Source: Myxococcales bacterium (GTDB taxonomy: Bacteria; Myxococcota_A; Polyangia; Nannocystales; Nannocystaceae). Taken from it: a stretch of DNA of 64,000 bases. Below, piece after piece: positions 2,133 through 42,647 of the stretch. The notes beneath the pieces are model-generated. The model was given only the letters and a program-made list of their open reading frames with translations, had not been told where the DNA came from and did no database searches. Numbering within the stretch: position 1 is the stretch's first letter; each line of letters starts with the position of its first letter. Location of the stretch: positions 1 to 64,000 of the forward strand of contig JAAZXR010000017.1 in NCBI GenBank assembly GCA_014240065.1, written 5' to 3'. A program made the position numbers and the translations under genes.

Positions 2133-4463
<2,331 letters not shown>

Positions 4464-33987: not shown

Positions 33988-34068
33988 GGGAGGAGCTTTA
34001 TGAGCGGAATCTTGCAGGTGCGGGTAAGCTCCGATCCCACGGCGCTCCTCGCCGCACGGAGGCTCCCA

Positions 34069-35115
34069 ATGGCTGATCGTCTCGACATCTCCCAGCGAAA
34101 AAAGGACCACCTCGCGCTGTGCGCCGGCGACGACGTCGGCTTTCGAGGAAAGGGGACGCTGCTCGATCAGGTGGAGCTGATCCACAACGCGATGCCCGAG
34201 CTCCACCTCGACGAGGTGGACACGTCCATCGAGCTGTTCGGCAAGCGGCTGCGTGCGCCCGTGGTGATCTCGGCCATGACCGGAGGCACGCCGGAGGCCG
34301 CGGCGATCAACAAGGACCTCGCGCAGGTGGCGGAGGAGCTCGGGCTCGCCATCGGGCTCGGGAGTCAGCGCGCGATGTTCGAGCGACCCGACACCGCGTG
34401 GACGTTCCAGGTCCGTGACGTGGCGCCCGAGGTCCCGCTGTTCGCGAACCTCGGGCTGGTCCAAGCGCGACAGATGTCGACCGCGGACATTCGTAAGGTG
34501 TGCGCGGACGTCGGGGCAGACGCGCTCTGTGTGCATCTCAACCCCGCGATGGAGATCGTTCAACCCGGCGGCGACCGCGATTTCTCGGGTGGCTTCGCCG
34601 TGTTTGATCGGCTCATCAACGACCTCGGGATCCCAGTGATCGCGAAGGAGACGGGATGCGGCCTGTCAAGGGGGGTGGGTACGCTGCTGCGCCGGGCCGG
34701 TGTGACGCATGTGGACGTCAGCGGCGCCGGCGGGACCAGCTGGGTCGCGGTCGAGGCTCATCGCGCGCTCGACGATCAAAAGGCGCTGGCCGAAGAACTC
34801 TGGGACTGGGGGATCCCCACGGCGGCCTCGCTCGTCCAGCTCCGCGGACTCGGGCTGACGGCCATCGCCACGGGCGGCCTGCGCACGGGCACAGATGTCG
34901 CCCGCGCCATCGCCCTCGGTGCCCGCGCAGGCGGCTTGGCCGCGCCGGTGCTCAAGGCCTACAAGTCCGGCGGACGAGCGGGCGCGCGACAATTTTTAGA
35001 ACGCGTCATCATCACGGTCCGCAGCGTCATGTTGTTGACCGGCGCGCGGACCGTGGATGAACTCACTCAAACCCCCCGCATTCTTGGGCCCGACCTGCAG
35101 CGCTGGATCCCGTGA
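34069..35115 (+). CDS. fni: Isopentenyl-diphosphate isomerase, type 2 (FMN-dependent)
   Basis: 348 aa from ATG 34069 (MADRLDISQRKKDHL), preceded by GGAGG at 6 nt. An in-frame ATG at 34000 has an equally good GGGAGGAG site and would add 23 residues. Motifs: RKKDHL near the N-terminus, VISAMTGGT (FMN), GSQRAMFE, NLGLVQARQ, CVHLNPAMEIVQPGGDRDF (with the Q of the active site), DVSGAGGTSW and ATGGLRTGTDVARAIALGA. It interconverts IPP and DMAPP using reduced FMN and NADPH. First gene of the mevalonate-squalene operon; its stop overlaps the mvk start as GTGA. Confidence 0.93.
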   Translation: MADRLDISQRKKDHLALCAGDDVGFRGKGTLLDQVELIHNAMPELHLDEVDTSIELFGKRLRAPVVISAMTGGTPEAAAINKDLAQVAEELGLAIGLGSQRAMFERPDTAWTFQVRDVAPEVPLFANLGLVQARQMSTADIRKVCADVGADALCVHLNPAMEIVQPGGDRDFSGGFAVFDRLINDLGIPVIAKETGCGLSRGVGTLLRRAGVTHVDVSGAGGTSWVAVEAHRALDDQKALAEELWDWGIPTAASLVQLRGLGLTAIATGGLRTGTDVARAIALGARAGGLAAPVLKAYKSGGRAGARQFLERVIITVRSVMLLTGARTVDELTQTPRILGPDLQRWIP

Positions 35116-36044
35116 CCTTCGCGCTGCACCCTCACGCCACGGCGGCTGGCAAGGTCATCTTGCTCGGCGAACACGCCGTCGTATACGGGGAGCCCGCCCT
35201 CGCCGCGGGGCTCCCCGAGGGCCTCACGTTGCGGGCGACACCCCTCGGCGTGACGACCGAGGTGGCGACCCTGTCGATTCCCGCGTGGGAGATCGACGTG
35301 CAGCTCGACATCGAAAACGAGCACCCCGCCGCTCGCGCCGCCCTGGCCGTGCTTGGGCACTGCGACGCGCCGCTTCGCGGGTACCGGATCGTTGGAGACG
35401 CGCGCATCCCGGCGCGGGCCGGGCTCGGATCCTCCGCGACCCTCACGGTCGCGCTGGCGCGGCTCGGGCTCGGACCGCGCGCCGCGGCGAGCGCGATCCT
35501 GGAGGCCGCCACGGAGGGCGAGCGCGTGTTCCATGGCGCCCCCTCGGGCATCGACGCGCACGTCGCCTGCCACGGGGGGGTGGTGAAGTTCTCGCGCGAC
35601 CTCGGGGCGAACAGACTCGCGCTCGAACGATCCTTTGATCTCGTCATCGTGCCCACCGGCGTGCCCCGCGACACAGCGGTTCAGGTGGCGGGCGTGCGTG
35701 AACGGCTGGCGGCGAGCCCGGAGGTCTACGAGCCCTTGATTCGCGCCCTCGGTTCGACGACGATGGCCGGCATCGACGCCGTGCTCCATCACGACCTCGC
35801 GCGCCTCTCAACGCTCATGAATTCCGCCCATGACATGCTGAACGCCCTCGGTGTCGGGCATCCACAGCTCGACGAAGCGCGTCGCGACGCGCTCGAGGCC
35901 GGCGCCCTCGCGGCGAAGCTCACCGGCGCCGGCGGCGGCGGATGCGTCGTCGCCCTCCCCGCGAGCGGAGCCGTCGACGCGGTCATGGGTGGGCTCACAG
36001 AACGGGGGCACGCTCCCCTCATCGCGAGGATCGGGCCGCCATGA
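35112..36044 (+). CDS. mvk: Mevalonate kinase
   Basis: 310 aa from GTG 35112. GHMP kinase motifs: AAGKVILLGEHAVVYG (motif 1), ARAGLGSSATLTVAL (motif 2, ATP phosphate loop) and AKLTGAGGGGCVVAL (motif 3). The SGIDAHVACHGG stretch carries the catalytic Asp. It phosphorylates mevalonate to 5-phosphomevalonate. Distinguished from the other GHMP kinases here by the LGEHAVVYG form and length. Overlaps both neighbours by 4 bp, indicating translational coupling. Confidence 0.92.
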   Translation: MTFALHPHATAAGKVILLGEHAVVYGEPALAAGLPEGLTLRATPLGVTTEVATLSIPAWEIDVQLDIENEHPAARAALAVLGHCDAPLRGYRIVGDARIPARAGLGSSATLTVALARLGLGPRAAASAILEAATEGERVFHGAPSGIDAHVACHGGVVKFSRDLGANRLALERSFDLVIVPTGVPRDTAVQVAGVRERLAASPEVYEPLIRALGSTTMAGIDAVLHHDLARLSTLMNSAHDMLNALGVGHPQLDEARRDALEAGALAAKLTGAGGGGCVVALPASGAVDAVMGGLTERGHAPLIARIGPP

Positions 36045-37072
36045 GAGCGATGCGCGCCACGGCCCACACCAACATCGCGCTGGTGAAGTACTGGGGCAAG
36101 CGCCCGGACGGCGGCCGCGATCTCAACCTCCCCGCGGTCGGGTCGTTGTCCATGACCTTGGACGAATACCGCACCGTGACCGTCGTGCGACCCCGCGCCG
36201 CGGCGGACGCCTTCGCGCTGGACGGGGCGACGCTCACAGGCGCGGCCGCGGACCGCGTCGCCAAGCACCTCGACCGCGTGTGGCGCACGCGTGGAGCTGA
36301 GGCAGGCCCACGCCCCTCCTGCGAGGTGGACTCTGTCAATCACGTCCCTACCGCGGCGGGCCTCGCGTCTTCGGCGTCGGGCTTTGCGGCGCTGACCTTG
36401 GCGGCCGCGGCCGCGCTCTCCGAAGACATGGTCGAGGGCATGGCCGAGGGCGACGGCGCGGATCGTCGCCTCCTCAGCGCGCTGGCGCGGCGAGGTTCGG
36501 GCAGCGCCGCGCGATCACTTTGGGGCGGCTTCGTGCGTCTTGATCGCGGCGAAGAAGCCGACGGGCGCGATTGCATCGCGCGCCCGGTCGCGTCTCGTCA
36601 CCACTGGGATCTCAAGATGCTCATCGTCCACACGACCACCGGCGCGAAGACGGTCGGATCCACCGGCGGAATGGAGCTGTGCAAGAACACCTCGCCCTAC
36701 TACGGCGCGTGGGTAGCGTCCTCGCAGCGAGACCTTGATTCGGCGACCTCGCGGCTACAAAACCGGGATCTGCGCGGCCTGGGGGAGGTCATGGAGCACA
36801 GCTGTTTTAAGATGCACGCCTCCATGTGGGCGGCCCGGCCTCCCCTCATCTATTGGAACGGAGTGACCGTTGAGGTGATGCGCGAGGTCCAACGCGCCCG
36901 CGCCGACGGCCTGCAAGGATGGGCGACCTCGGACGCGGGGCCCCACGTCAAAGTGCTCTGCGAGGCGGCGACGGCGGACGCGCTCGTGGCCCGCCTGGAG
37001 TCCGTCGTCGGCGTGGTGGACGTGAAGGCCCTGGGCGTCGGTCCCGACCCAAAAGTGGAGGCGGCGACGTGA
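36041..37072 (+). CDS. mvaD: Diphosphomevalonate decarboxylase
   Basis: 343 aa from ATG 36041 (MRAMRATAHTNIALVKYWGK). Family signatures: the N-terminal HTNIALVKYWGKRPD, LSMTLDEYRT, and the GHMP loop PTAAGLASSASGFAAL. RGSGSAARSLWGGFV carries the catalytic Ser/Arg region, and DAGPHVKVLC lies near the C-terminus. It decarboxylates mevalonate diphosphate to IPP with ATP. Its presence with a phosphomevalonate kinase shows the classical (eukaryote/Gram-positive style) route instead of the archaeal one. Stop overlaps the next gene's GTG. Confidence 0.94.
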   Translation: MRAMRATAHTNIALVKYWGKRPDGGRDLNLPAVGSLSMTLDEYRTVTVVRPRAAADAFALDGATLTGAAADRVAKHLDRVWRTRGAEAGPRPSCEVDSVNHVPTAAGLASSASGFAALTLAAAAALSEDMVEGMAEGDGADRRLLSALARRGSGSAARSLWGGFVRLDRGEEADGRDCIARPVASRHHWDLKMLIVHTTTGAKTVGSTGGMELCKNTSPYYGAWVASSQRDLDSATSRLQNRDLRGLGEVMEHSCFKMHASMWAARPPLIYWNGVTVEVMREVQRARADGLQGWATSDAGPHVKVLCEAATADALVARLESVVGVVDVKALGVGPDPKVEAAT

Positions 37073-39360
37073 CCATCATCAGCGCCCCCGGCAAGGCGTT
37101 CTTGTTCGGAGAGTACGCCGTCTTGGAGGGCCATCGAGGGGTCGTCGCGGCGGTCGATGTGCGGGCGTTCGCGTGGGATGTGGTCGCGCTCAATGACCCA
37201 GGGAGCGGCGAAGAGGATCCGCGCCACGGCTGGCCGGAGTGCGACCCGACCGCGGAGGTGCTGGCCGCGATCAGCGCCGCCAACCAGTGGCTCGCCGAAC
37301 AAGGCGACGCGCCCGTCACGTCACGGCCGGCGCTTGACAGCCGGCGCTTCGCGCCCGGACTCCGCAAACTCGGCTTCGGTTCGAGCGCGGCGGTCACCGT
37401 GGCGACCGTCGCGTGGATGCTCGCCGCTCGCGGATATTCGGCCACCGACGACCTCACGCGCCGGCACGTACACCGCATCGCCCGGGAGGCCCACCGCCGC
37501 GCGCAAGGCGGCGGCAGCGGCGGGGACATCGCCGCATCGACCTTCGGGGGCCTGCTCTCCATCTCAGGCGCCGAGGTCCGCCCCCTCCCCAGCCCACCGT
37601 GGTTGCACATGGCGTTCTTTGACGCGGGCGCCCCCGCCAGCACCCGCTCGCTGCTCTCGGAGGTGCAGCGCGGCGCGGCGGCTCGCCCCGAGGCCTACGC
37701 CGCCGCGATCGAGGCCCTCGGCGCAGCGGCGAATCTCGGGCACCAGGGGCTCAACACGGCCGACGCGACGCGCGGTTTCACGGCGGTCCGCGACGCCTGT
37801 CGAACGCACGGTGACGGGCTCGCTCAGCTTGAGGCGCTCGCGAACCTCGAAATCTGCACGCCCAACATCCGCCGGGTCATGGAGCTCGCGTCCTCTTTGG
37901 GGCTGTGCGCCAAACCAAGCGGCGCAGGCGGCGGCGACATATTGGTGGCCTTCGCGACCAGCCGCGCCGCCCTCGACAAGCTGTCGCGGCGCGTGTGGAG
38001 CGAACTGATGGTCCGCCCGATCAGCGACACCGAGGGGCTCGCTGAGGGCGTCCGCGCAGAGGATAAATCGCCCGTATCCAGCCGCATCTCCGGGCTGTAC
38101 CGCCGACCGGTGCGGTCACGCCAGCGCGCGGTCGCCCGGATGGCGGGGCTCGACGATGAGGCGCTCAGGCCCGAAGCCCACGAGCCCTTCGGCCTCGAGC
38201 AGGCGGAGCATATGATCGAGAACGTGATCGGGCTGATGCCGCTGCCCGTCGGCGTGGCCACCAACTTCACCATCAACGGCAAGGACGTGCTGGTGCCCAT
38301 GTGCGTCGAGGAGGCCTCGGTGGTCGCCGCGGCTTCCAACGCCGCCAAGATGATCCGGGACGGGGGGGGCTTCATCGCGCACTCCGATCCCCCTTGGATG
38401 ATCGCGCAGATCCAGCTGGTGTGCGGCCCGACCGCGACCGCGACGGCCGAGGAGGTGCAGGCGAAGGTCCTCGCTCACGAGGCGGAGCTGCTGAAGATCG
38501 CCGACGAGGCCCACCCGCGGCTCATCGCTCGGGGCGGCGGCGCCCGAGCGCTCCAGGTGCGGGTCCTGGCGTCGGACACCGTGGTGGTTCACCTCCTCGT
38601 CGACTGCCAAGACGCCATGGGGGCCAATTTGATCAACACGGTGGCGGAGGTGGCCGCGGCGCCCCTTGAGGCGCTCACTGGATGGACCCCCTGCCTCCGG
38701 ATCCTGTCCAACCTCAGCGACGCTCGGGCGTCCCACGTCAGCGCCCGAATCCCCCCAAGCGCGCTCGCCTCGAGGGACTGGAGCGGCGAGATCGTGGTGG
38801 ATCGCATCGTGGAAGCGTCGCGATTCGCGGAGCTCGATCCCTACCGGGCCACCACCCACAACAAGGGCATCATGAACGGCGTAGACGCTGTGGTGCTCGC
38901 CACCGGGAATGACTGGCGCGCCATGGAGGCCAGCGCCCACGCCTACGCTGTGCGCGGGGGTCGCTACCGACCCCTCGCGACGTGGACCCGCGACTCGCGC
39001 GGCTGGCTCTCGGGGACGATGAGTCTCCCCACGGCCATCGGCGTCGTCGGCGGCGCCACGCGAAGCCACCCGGCTGCCCGGGCGGCGCTCCAAGTGCTGG
39101 GCACCCCCCACGCGAAGCAGCTCGGGTTGGTGATCGCGTGCGTTGGCTTAGCTAGTAATCTCGCGGCGTTGCGCGCCTTAGCTACCGAAGGGATTCAACG
39201 TGGCCACATGGGGCTGCACGCGCGGTCCATCGCAGCAGCCGCCGGCGCGAGAGGCGACGAGGTCCCACGGCTCGCGCGCAAACTCATCGATTCAGGCGAA
39301 ATCAAGCTTGAGCGCGCCCGCGCTCTGCTCGCGACGATTCGTGCGAGTTTGGCGCCATAG
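37069..39360 (+). CDS. Phosphomevalonate kinase - HMG-CoA reductase fusion protein
   Basis: 763 aa from GTG 37069, one uninterrupted frame. Residues 1-~315 are a GHMP kinase of the phosphomevalonate kinase branch: SAPGKAFLFGEYAVLEG, KLGFGSSAAVTVATV, QGGGSGGDIAASTFGG and KPSGAGGGDILVAF. Residues ~345-763 are class II HMG-CoA reductase: MIENVIGLMPLPVGVATNF (Glu384), VPMCVEEASVVAAASNAAK, DCQDAMGANLIN (Asp516), THNKGIMNGVDAVVLATGND (Lys599) and GHMGLHARSIAAAAGARGDE (His717). All four catalytic residues of the class II reductase are present, so both halves look active. It would make mevalonate from HMG-CoA and later phosphorylate phosphomevalonate, two non-consecutive steps. A short linker (~315-345) is Arg/Ser-rich. 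Confidence 0.93.
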   Translation: MTIISAPGKAFLFGEYAVLEGHRGVVAAVDVRAFAWDVVALNDPGSGEEDPRHGWPECDPTAEVLAAISAANQWLAEQGDAPVTSRPALDSRRFAPGLRKLGFGSSAAVTVATVAWMLAARGYSATDDLTRRHVHRIAREAHRRAQGGGSGGDIAASTFGGLLSISGAEVRPLPSPPWLHMAFFDAGAPASTRSLLSEVQRGAAARPEAYAAAIEALGAAANLGHQGLNTADATRGFTAVRDACRTHGDGLAQLEALANLEICTPNIRRVMELASSLGLCAKPSGAGGGDILVAFATSRAALDKLSRRVWSELMVRPISDTEGLAEGVRAEDKSPVSSRISGLYRRPVRSRQRAVARMAGLDDEALRPEAHEPFGLEQAEHMIENVIGLMPLPVGVATNFTINGKDVLVPMCVEEASVVAAASNAAKMIRDGGGFIAHSDPPWMIAQIQLVCGPTATATAEEVQAKVLAHEAELLKIADEAHPRLIARGGGARALQVRVLASDTVVVHLLVDCQDAMGANLINTVAEVAAAPLEALTGWTPCLRILSNLSDARASHVSARIPPSALASRDWSGEIVVDRIVEASRFAELDPYRATTHNKGIMNGVDAVVLATGNDWRAMEASAHAYAVRGGRYRPLATWTRDSRGWLSGTMSLPTAIGVVGGATRSHPAARAALQVLGTPHAKQLGLVIACVGLASNLAALRALATEGIQRGHMGLHARSIAAAAGARGDEVPRLARKLIDSGEIKLERARALLATIRASLAP

Positions 39361-39391
39361 CATGCTACACACCGAGAGGGTTCTTCCTGCC

Positions 39392-40372
39392 ATGCCAAGC
39401 ACACCGACCGCGACTAGCACCCGCCTCTACGCCGTCCCAGAGCCGACCGTCACCCGTAAGGACGACGCGAAGGCCTTCCCAGATGGCGCTCCTCTTGGCC
39501 CGTGGACCACGGAGACCGCCTATCGTTATTGTGAGCGCATCGCCACCTCTCACTACGAGAACTTCCCGGTGGCATCCCGCTTCGTCCCTAGTCACCTGCG
39601 ACCCCACGTCTGGGCGATCTATGCGTTCGCGCGCACAGCAGATGACTTCGCCGACGAGCCCCGCTTCGAAGGGCGCCGGCGCCCTTCACTCAAGGCGTGG
39701 GAGCGCCTGTTAGAAGACGCCTACCATCAAGAGGCGACGCATCCGGTTTTCATCGCTCTCCGAGACACGGTTCGGCGAAACAATATCCCGATCGCCCCGT
39801 TCTCAGCGCTGTTGAACGCCTTCCAGATCGACCTCACGAAGACGCGCTACGGGTCGTTCAATGAGCTCAAGTCCTACTGCGCCAACTCGGCGAACCCCGT
39901 CGGACAGCTCGTGCTGTACGTCCACGGACACCACGAGCCCGAGCTCCATCGTTTCTCCGACGAGATCTGCAGCGCGCTGCAAATCGCGAACTTCCTCCAA
40001 GATGTGAGCGTGGACATCCCCCGCGGGCGCTGCTACCTGCCCGAAGAGGATCTGCTGCACTTTGGGGTCGAGCACGAAGACCTCATGCGCGGCGACGCGA
40101 CCGAGGCGTTCATCGAGCTGATGCGCTTCTCCGTGGCCCGCACCCGCACCATGTTCCATCGCGGCGAACCCTTGATCCGTCGGGTCTCCCCGGGGCTGTC
40201 CATGGAACTCGACGCCACCTGGCGCGGCGGCATGCGAATTCTCGACCGCATCGAGGCCATGGATTTCAACACCTTGACCGAGCGTCCCGTGCTCGAGCGG
40301 CGCGACTTCGCGGGGATCGCGATGCGCTCGCTCGTCGCGTTCGGCGGTCGGTTTTTACGGGGAGAGGCCTAA
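39392..40372 (+). CDS. hpnC: Squalene synthase HpnC
   Basis: 326 aa from ATG 39392, with a GAGAGGG site 12 nt upstream; ATG 39362 is an alternative. Trans-isoprenyl diphosphate synthase (SQS/PSY) fold: first Asp motif ARTADDFADE, the region FQIDLTKTRYGSFNELKSYC, and second motif ANFLQDVSVDIPRGRCYLP. Its adjacency to hpnD and hpnE identifies the HpnC role. HpnC converts presqualene diphosphate to hydroxysqualene. The N-terminal ~40 residues (Thr/Pro-rich) are an extension beyond the usual start. Confidence 0.92.
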   Translation: MPSTPTATSTRLYAVPEPTVTRKDDAKAFPDGAPLGPWTTETAYRYCERIATSHYENFPVASRFVPSHLRPHVWAIYAFARTADDFADEPRFEGRRRPSLKAWERLLEDAYHQEATHPVFIALRDTVRRNNIPIAPFSALLNAFQIDLTKTRYGSFNELKSYCANSANPVGQLVLYVHGHHEPELHRFSDEICSALQIANFLQDVSVDIPRGRCYLPEEDLLHFGVEHEDLMRGDATEAFIELMRFSVARTRTMFHRGEPLIRRVSPGLSMELDATWRGGMRILDRIEAMDFNTLTERPVLERRDFAGIAMRSLVAFGGRFLRGEA

Positions 40373-40378
40373 CGCGTT

Positions 40379-41287
40379 GTGGGCAGCCTCCGACGATTCT
40401 CGTCCAGAGGCGCCACCTTGTGGAGGCGACTTCGCACCCGCAGCAGCTCGAACTTTCAGTTCGCGTTCATGTTCTTGACCCCGCACCAGCGTCAGGCGCT
40501 CGAGGCGGTCTACTCGTATTGCCGAGCCATCGACGACATCGTCGACGAGCGCGACGCTGGGCCGGCGGGGATCCGAGCGGCGCGTGAACAGCTCAACGAA
40601 TGGCGCGCCAGGATCGAGGGCATCGTCCACGGGGAGGGTCGCGAGGCTCTCGGCGCACCGCTGGTAGGGCGCCTCGCCGACGCGATCCACCGCTACCAGC
40701 TCCGCGAGGCCCCCCTGCTCGAGATCATCGAGGGCTGCGAGATGGATCTAGAGCGATCGACCTACAGCACCCCTGAGGAGCTTGAGCGCTACTGCTACCG
40801 CGTAGCCTCTTGCGTCGGGCTTTTGTGCATCCCCATCTTCGGTGAAGACGGTCCAGAGGCTCGCGCGTACGCACAACACCTCGGACTCGCGCTCCAGTAC
40901 ACCAATATCCTGCGCGACGTCGGCGAGGACGCCCAGCGCGGCCGGGTCTACCTCCCCGCGACGATTCTGGCTCAACACGGATTAACCGCCGGCGAGATCT
41001 TCGGTGGCAAGTATGACGCTCGCTTCATCGGCGCGGCCGCTCAATTCGCCGCCCTCGCCGAGCGCGAATATCGCCTGGCTTGGGATCAGCTGCGGCTCGT
41101 GAAGGCCCCCCTCAAGCTCGTCCCCGCGGAGGTGATGGGCCGCACGTACTACGAGATCCTGCGTGAAATCCGACGCTTCAATTTCGACGTATTCTTGCGT
41201 CGGGCGTCACTTCGCCGCCGGGTCAAGCTCCGCGTCGCCGCCGTGACCATCGCTCGAAACGCGGTCCAGCAGAGCAACCTGCAATAG
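40379..41287 (+). CDS. hpnD: Presqualene diphosphate synthase HpnD
   Basis: 302 aa from GTG 40379, 6 bp after hpnC. SQS/PSY fold: SYCRAIDDIVDE (first DxxxD), EGCEMDLERSTYSTPEELERYCYRVASCVG and NILRDVGEDAQRGRVYLP (second DxxxD). It condenses two farnesyl diphosphates to presqualene diphosphate. Compared with hpnC, the two Asp motifs are closer to textbook. Paralogous to hpnC, consistent with the three-gene bacterial squalene route. Confidence 0.93.
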   Translation: MGSLRRFSSRGATLWRRLRTRSSSNFQFAFMFLTPHQRQALEAVYSYCRAIDDIVDERDAGPAGIRAAREQLNEWRARIEGIVHGEGREALGAPLVGRLADAIHRYQLREAPLLEIIEGCEMDLERSTYSTPEELERYCYRVASCVGLLCIPIFGEDGPEARAYAQHLGLALQYTNILRDVGEDAQRGRVYLPATILAQHGLTAGEIFGGKYDARFIGAAAQFAALAEREYRLAWDQLRLVKAPLKLVPAEVMGRTYYEILREIRRFNFDVFLRRASLRRRVKLRVAAVTIARNAVQQSNLQ

Positions 41288-41294
41288 AGGATCT

Positions 41295-42647
41295 GTGGGA
41301 AGCGCTCGCACCATTGTCATCGGCGGAGGGCTCGCCGGACTCGCCGCCGCGACTCGACTCGTCGAGGCCGGACACGAGGTCACCGTCCTCGAGGCGGCGA
41401 AGTATGGTGGTGGGCGCTCCCGCTCGTTTCACGATCCAGTCCTCGACCGCGAAATCGACAATGGACAGCACCTGATGATGGGCTGCTATCACGAGACTCA
41501 GGCGTTCTTGCGGACGATCGGCTCGGAAGACGACGCGGTCTACTACCAGCGGAATCTCGCGGTCAAGATGGTCAAACCCGGCGGGGTGTTGGTGGAGTTC
41601 TCTTGCCCCGCGTTGCCCGCCCCCTTCCACCTGGCCGCGGGATTACTCGGGATGCGCGGGGTGGGCATCTGGGCGAAGGCCGCCGCGCTGCGGGCCGGGC
41701 TCATGCTTCGCAACGAGGTGGTGCGCCCCGACGACAATGAGACCTGCGACGCGTGGCTGCAACGGATGGGCCAGACCCTCGAGCTCCGCGGCGCCTTCTG
41801 GGAGCCGCTGATCTGGGCGGTGTTGAACGAAGACCCCTTGGTCGCGTCCGCGGCGATGTTGGTGGCGGTCCTCGACCGAGCGTTCATGAGCACCCGGGAC
41901 GCCTCCCGACTCGGGGTCCCGAAACGCCCCCTGAGTCGGCTCTACGTCGACCACGCCTGCGACTATCTCACCGCGGGCGGGGCCGCGCTGCGCTTCGGCG
42001 CCGCGGTCCGCGAGATTCGGGTGGAGGGGGGTCGCGCGGTGGGTGTGCGGCTCAAGGACGGCAGCACGCTCGACGCCGCGAATCTGATCTCGGCGGTCCC
42101 CCCGCACGCGCTGCTGTCCATGTTGCCGGCCCAAGCGACGCAGCACTGGGCCTTCGTCGACGTCCAACGCCTCGACACCTCTCCGATCATCAACCTCTGG
42201 GCGCTCGTTGATCGTCCGTTGTTTGAAGGGCCCTTCGTCGGCCTCGTCGGCTCCCCGCTCCACTGGGTGTTCGACCGCGACCAAATCGACCCTCTCCCGG
42301 GCAGCGAGGGGAACCTCTTGTCGGTCACAATTTCGGGCGCCCGGAGCTACATCGACGACGACCCCGCGTCGCTGGAGGGCCTATTCGAATCGGAGCTTCG
42401 CAAGTACTTTCCACGCAGACCGTTCGAGCTGCGCAAGTTTCGCGTCGTCAAAGAGCGGCGGGCAACGATCAGCCACGCCGCTGGGACCTACCACCGGCGA
42501 CCGGAGACGAAGAGCCCGGTGCCGGGGTTGCTGCTCGCTGGCGATTGGACGCGGACCGGCCTGCCTGCGACCATCGAATCGGCGGTCAAGAGCGGTCACG
42601 ACGCGGCCGCGGTCGTGTTGGACCATCAGCCTCCGCGGCGCCCTTGA
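41295..42647 (+). CDS. hpnE: Hydroxysqualene dehydroxylase HpnE
   Basis: 450 aa from GTG 41295, 7 bp after hpnD. Rossmann FAD motif TIVIGGGLAGLAAATRLVEAG, followed by VLEAAKYGGGRSRSF and DNGQHLMMGCY. The C-terminal FAD segment is GLLLAGDWTRTGLPATIESAVKSG. Amine-oxidase/phytoene-desaturase superfamily; HpnE reduces hydroxysqualene to squalene. Last gene of the biosynthetic run; its end overlaps the opposing ygfZ gene by 22 bp, so transcription from the operon may read antisense into ygfZ. Confidence 0.94.
   Translation: MGSARTIVIGGGLAGLAAATRLVEAGHEVTVLEAAKYGGGRSRSFHDPVLDREIDNGQHLMMGCYHETQAFLRTIGSEDDAVYYQRNLAVKMVKPGGVLVEFSCPALPAPFHLAAGLLGMRGVGIWAKAAALRAGLMLRNEVVRPDDNETCDAWLQRMGQTLELRGAFWEPLIWAVLNEDPLVASAAMLVAVLDRAFMSTRDASRLGVPKRPLSRLYVDHACDYLTAGGAALRFGAAVREIRVEGGRAVGVRLKDGSTLDAANLISAVPPHALLSMLPAQATQHWAFVDVQRLDTSPIINLWALVDRPLFEGPFVGLVGSPLHWVFDRDQIDPLPGSEGNLLSVTISGARSYIDDDPASLEGLFESELRKYFPRRPFELRKFRVVKERRATISHAAGTYHRRPETKSPVPGLLLAGDWTRTGLPATIESAVKSGHDAAAVVLDHQPPRRP

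Follow-up and report, generated by a model that had tools for sequence, protein, structure and literature searches.

A single gene in the isoprenoid operon of this Myxococcales bacterium (Nannocystaceae) encodes a 763-residue fusion of phosphomevalonate kinase (PMK) and class II HMG-CoA reductase (HMGR), its kinase part being best read as PMK. The gene is located at 37069..39360 (+ strand) of the window, i.e. the whole stretch of 64,000 nucleotides that was analysed. Judged by its predicted activities the chain is very probably bifunctional: the C-terminal class II HMGR domain would convert HMG-CoA to mevalonate and the N-terminal GHMP kinase domain would convert mevalonate-5-phosphate to the diphosphate, with the intermediate step being left to a mevalonate kinase that has its own gene, two genes upstream. 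We are confident of this overall picture, a bifunctional mevalonate-pathway enzyme of single ancestral origin that is presumably built from modular domains.

One open reading frame within an isoprenoid gene set

Translation of the frame yielded 763 residues with zero internal stops, and all three Pfam matches scored above their cut-offs: GHMP_kinases_N at residues 100-161 (31.8 bits, cut-off 22.3) and GHMP_kinases_C at residues 251-311 (31.9 bits, cut-off 21), which place the N-terminal part in the GHMP superfamily, and HMG-CoA_red at residues 348-718 (E 4.5e-104). Translation and domain search thus agree with the original prediction that one open frame carries both enzyme families, and the domain limits given there, 315-345, were corrected to about 330-338. 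The PMK-type kinase domain comprises residues 1-329 (37069..38055, +), the HMGR domain, identified by Pfam, NCBIfam, catalytic residues and fold, residues 335-763 (38071..39357, +), and the junction residues G327-S338 (38047..38082, +). An AlphaFold2 monomer model of the fusion, built on a 17-sequence alignment, had a mean pLDDT of 82, and structure comparison matched residues 1-333 of the model to GHMP kinases (best match 3k17, Z 34.9 over 307 residues) and residues 334-760 to class II HMG-CoA reductases (Z about 35).

The gene order is idi2-mvk-mvd-[PMK-HMGR]-hpnC-hpnD-hpnE, all on the + strand. Type 2 isopentenyl-diphosphate isomerase (idi2, 34000..35115; TIGR02151), mevalonate kinase (mvk, 35112..36044; TIGR00549) and diphosphomevalonate decarboxylase (mvd, 36041..37072; TIGR01240) are all above the cut-offs of their models, and consecutive genes from idi2 to the fusion overlap by 4 nt (GTGA, ATGA and GTGA), the last overlap comprising the mvd stop and the GTG start of the fusion gene. 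Squalene synthase HpnC (hpnC, 39362..40372; TIGR03464 above cut-off) starts 1 nt past the fusion stop and is followed by a presqualene diphosphate synthase-like gene (hpnD, 40379..41287), for which TIGR03465 is the best model with 245.8 bits, below the cut-off of 278.6, and by hydroxysqualene dehydroxylase (hpnE, 41295..42647; TIGR03467 above cut-off). The tight packing of this isoprenoid gene set, its 4-nt overlaps and its conserved order bear out that the fusion belongs to an operon, as had been proposed. Elsewhere in the window, a 776-residue open reading frame (2133-4463, - strand) combines, by eye, a signal peptidase I-like N-terminal half with a long C-terminal extension.

Searching the source genome (4.7 Mb, 97.7% complete) revealed neither a second HMGR nor another PMK candidate, as the GHMP_kinases_C domain occurred, besides the fusion, in the mevalonate kinase and in a homoserine kinase. 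DXP reductoisomerase (DXR), a marker of the MEP pathway, was detected in 0 of 29 Nannocystaceae genomes while the same search was positive in 10 of 14 controls, and this absence from the whole set argues against the MEP pathway as a backup. As DXR is absent and no other HMGR or PMK candidate was found, the source cell seems to depend on mevalonate for its isoprenoids, with the fusion as the only candidate found for two of its steps, and both fusion domains are, for the same reasons, probably needed. For HMG-CoA synthase the source genome yielded a single similar gene (L118:648-1922, on G000:C224), which is located outside the operon and scored 264 bits, below the TIGR01835 cut-off of 360.

Assignment of the reductase and kinase domains

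TIGR00532, the NCBIfam model for HMGR, matched the fusion with 356.6 bits (cut-off 259.95) and also matched all 17 aligned fusions. Alignment to the P. mevalonii enzyme places its residues E83, K267, D283 and H381, which we take to be catalytic, at E415 in VEEAS (codon 38311-38313), K599 in HNKG (38863-38865), D615 in GND (38911-38913) and H717 in LHAR (39217-39219; all + strand), and these four residues are invariant in 17/17 aligned fusions. Four motifs had originally been proposed as catalytic blocks; HNKG and LHAR keep this role since they carry K599 and H717, whereas ENVIG and DAMGAN are conserved blocks, the catalytic Glu and Asp being located in VEEAS and GND. The class II HMGRs of P. 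mevalonii (1qax) and Delftia acidovorans (6dio) have the same fold, the same four catalytic residues and about 46-49% identity in the structure alignment, but unlike them the fusion has an N-terminal kinase and carries H482 at the position of P. mevalonii D146, presumably the NAD-selecting residue. H482 and R484 are both invariant in the fusions and, as D146 is replaced by an invariant His, NADPH seems the more probable cofactor, which would befit a biosynthetic enzyme, although the model name contains the term 'degradative'.

The best kinase model on the fusion was TIGR01220 (PMK) with 111.6 bits for the whole chain and 117.1 bits for the domain alone, below the cut-off of 165.7. Because this cut-off is not reached we file the domain as a GHMP kinase that probably acts as PMK and leave it outside TIGR01220. 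As 7/7 standalone myxobacterial PMKs scanned stayed below the cut-off as well, the model in its current form fails to recognise the myxobacterial PMKs tested, and annotation relying on TIGR01220 would overlook them. The best structural match of the domain, Listeria innocua Lin0012 (3k17), is a Gram-positive-type PMK that shares the GGGD motif with it but is a standalone protein and only about 23% identical.

Motif 3 reads GGGD in 46/50 PMK-labelled rows vs GGGG in 35/36 mevalonate kinase rows, and in the kinase tree the 17 fused domains form one clade (support 98) that groups with standalone PMKs and is separate from the mevalonate kinases. Among the latter, two rows bear a PMK label; both come from archaeal loci and seem to be mevalonate kinases with a wrong label. 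The PMK profile leads the mevalonate kinase profile by a small margin, and Plesiocystis shows the opposite order, with the mevalonate kinase model scoring slightly higher; together with good fold matches to several mevalonate kinase structures this would fit a domain that is a further mevalonate kinase or some different GHMP kinase, with phosphomevalonate being handled elsewhere. We regard such an assignment as very unlikely, since the operon already contains a separate mevalonate kinase above cut-off, the fused domain carries GGGD and groups with the standalone PMKs, and no other PMK candidate was found in the genome. On the same grounds, operon context, tree position, GGGD and absence of another candidate, we infer that the N-terminal domain phosphorylates mevalonate-5-phosphate.

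One of the two domains might no longer be catalytic, e.g. if the kinase were retained purely as a scaffold. This is hardly credible, as the GHMP motif residues (K9, G102-S106, D153 and K282-D290) show, like the HMGR catalytic residues, no or almost no variation across 17 fusions, and the source genome holds no backup gene.

Distribution and origin of the fusion

A 175-residue query spanning the junction gave a stop-free match in 24/29 Nannocystaceae genomes. The other five are uninformative, three of them (G016, G024 and G025) being cut at contig edges and two being only 54% and 65% complete; the junction is thus intact in 24/24 informative genomes, which represent Nannocystis, Plesiocystis, Enhygromyxa and Paraliomyxa. 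The records of the carriers include Nannocystis exedens, N. poenicansa, N. bainbridge, Plesiocystis pacifica, Enhygromyxa salina, Paraliomyxa miuraensis and MAGs. A stop or frameshift at the junction was looked for and none was found, the source genome being among the 24 in which the junction is open. The recurrence of the same open junction in these genomes rules out a local sequencing error or frameshift, and protein-level conservation across the junction rules out chance read-through of overlapping genes.

This pair was seen as separate genes in 0/29 Nannocystaceae genomes. Among 152 Myxococcota genomes the junction was open only in the four Nannocystaceae, the match elsewhere covering one part or being broken by stops, so that an uninterrupted junction occurred in 0/148 of the other Myxococcota genomes sampled. 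The search for the same architecture in other Myxococcota, which the original prediction had called for, hence confines it, among the genomes sampled, to the Nannocystaceae. A scan of 84,980 species by two reductase peptide patterns, from which the best 80 of 391 matches were retained, revealed no independent fusion among these 80 loci. The PMK-HMGR fusion is a fixed trait of Nannocystaceae.

The fusion gene is broken in two assemblies from the Nannocystis genus group, by frameshifts in one (G028:C2:2882604-2884830, L119) and by a contig end in the other (G025:C33:2-685). One Enhygromyxa salina genome has a second HMGR (L126, G015:C115:194545-195609), to which TIGR00533 and TIGR00920 (NADPH, class I-type) fit better than class II, and two Nannocystaceae genomes have, in addition to the fusion, an extra standalone class II HMGR (L124, G006:C583; L125, G012:C607), possibly due to MAG contamination. 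In a group of Bathyarchaeota/Crenarchaeota MAGs a mevalonate kinase-like gene is followed, after about 0.7 kb, by a class II (bacterial-type) HMGR; archaeal loci with both genes are L082, L084, L086, L089, L092, L094, L099, L103, L105 and L106.

In many other Polyangia the PMK and HMGR genes are adjacent and in the same operon order, commonly with a 4-nt overlap, often at ATGA, or in frame a few codons apart. The standalone PMKs of these bacteria thus resemble the fusion in operon position and order and group with its kinase domain in the tree, but their PMK and HMGR are two separate proteins, unlike the Nannocystaceae chain. The HMGR tree, built from 85 domains, united the fused rows (support 99) with one exception, L048; this row bears the label HMGR alone, but its sequence starts at a contig edge, which makes it unscorable as fused or unfused. 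As the fused rows cluster in both domain trees, the simplest reading of the sequences is one fusion event in the Nannocystaceae ancestor, in whose operon the stop and start signals separating adjacent PMK and HMGR genes would have disappeared. Stop-codon loss without special advantage is an equally simple history as a useful fusion, because the genes of the relatives are adjacent and often overlap. Fixed stoichiometry, which the fusion had been proposed to provide, is compatible with the single-origin history.

Nannocystaceae are known for sterols. For the sterol-producing Nannocystis pusilla (Na p20) a study from 2023 reported that neither PMK nor HMGR could be recognised (PMC10152446). The fused gene may account for both gaps and is a likely answer. 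Named congeners carry the fusion, and it is broken in two assemblies of the same genus group; breaks of that kind could make annotation miss both enzymes.

Linker, possible regulation and comparison with known systems

The distance from G327 to S338 is exactly 12 residues in 17/17 fusions, P335 is invariant, and the linker block 331-340 has a pLDDT of 85 in the model. The fusions carry RPPxxSRxxGFFK, or a close variant of it, at the junction, and standalone reductases start a few residues before SRIPGFYK. Kinase loops vary widely in length across the fusions, and several other segments are as constant as the linker. The constant linker, the only hint of this kind in the sequences, suggests a constrained domain arrangement. 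If the chain were made whole and then cut into two enzymes, the fusion would be without lasting effect; we give this next to no credence, as the linker is short and constant in length with an invariant proline and no variable spacer, and the frame is intact in 24 genomes, one of them a single-contig chromosome.

Class II HMGRs are dimers or hexamers in which the active site lies between subunits, and they bind statins weakly. In the fusion the HMGR part would adopt the usual dimer or hexamer and carry one PMK per subunit, the two domains probably acting as independent catalytic modules on a short, fixed linker. In addition to bifunctionality, and not as an alternative to it, the fusion might have a regulatory or spatial purpose, with the kinase sensing substrate or ATP and tuning the reductase, or with the assembly recruiting more enzymes of the pathway to the HMGR core. 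Flux through the mevalonate pathway is commonly held to be controlled at HMG-CoA reductase. The linker, with its constant length, invariant proline (17/17) and pLDDT of 85, and the retention of the fusion in every informative Nannocystaceae genome are in line with such a purpose, but packing alone would fix the linker length, several other segments are equally constant, and direct channelling between the sites is unlikely as the steps are non-consecutive, so that we consider it unlikely. Rather unlikely, too, is the specific form in which the kinase is docked on the reductase and relays the mevalonate-5-phosphate or ATP level to it; if true, Nannocystaceae would possess a protein-encoded HMGR feedback loop, unlike the eukaryotic sterol-sensing one. 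A stable natural HMGR-PMK fusion that occurs throughout this sterol-associated family is a convenient system for asking if flux changes when non-consecutive steps are joined.

Natural fusions of isoprenoid-pathway enzymes are known (MvaE, IspDF), and the PMK-HMGR pairing is apparently undescribed: the original prediction knew of no such fusion, and none was found described in the open-access literature either. MvaE of enterococci is an acetoacetyl-CoA thiolase-HMGR fusion and resembles PMK-HMGR in that a class II HMGR is naturally fused to another mevalonate-pathway enzyme. Its partner, however, is the thiolase of an earlier step and no kinase, and the PMK-HMGR chain had no Pfam match to a thiolase domain and contains a GHMP kinase instead. 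IspDF fusions join non-consecutive steps of the MEP pathway (PMC13001223) and are, like PMK-HMGR, natural fusions of non-consecutive steps in the synthesis of isoprenoid precursors, although in a different pathway and with unrelated enzymes.
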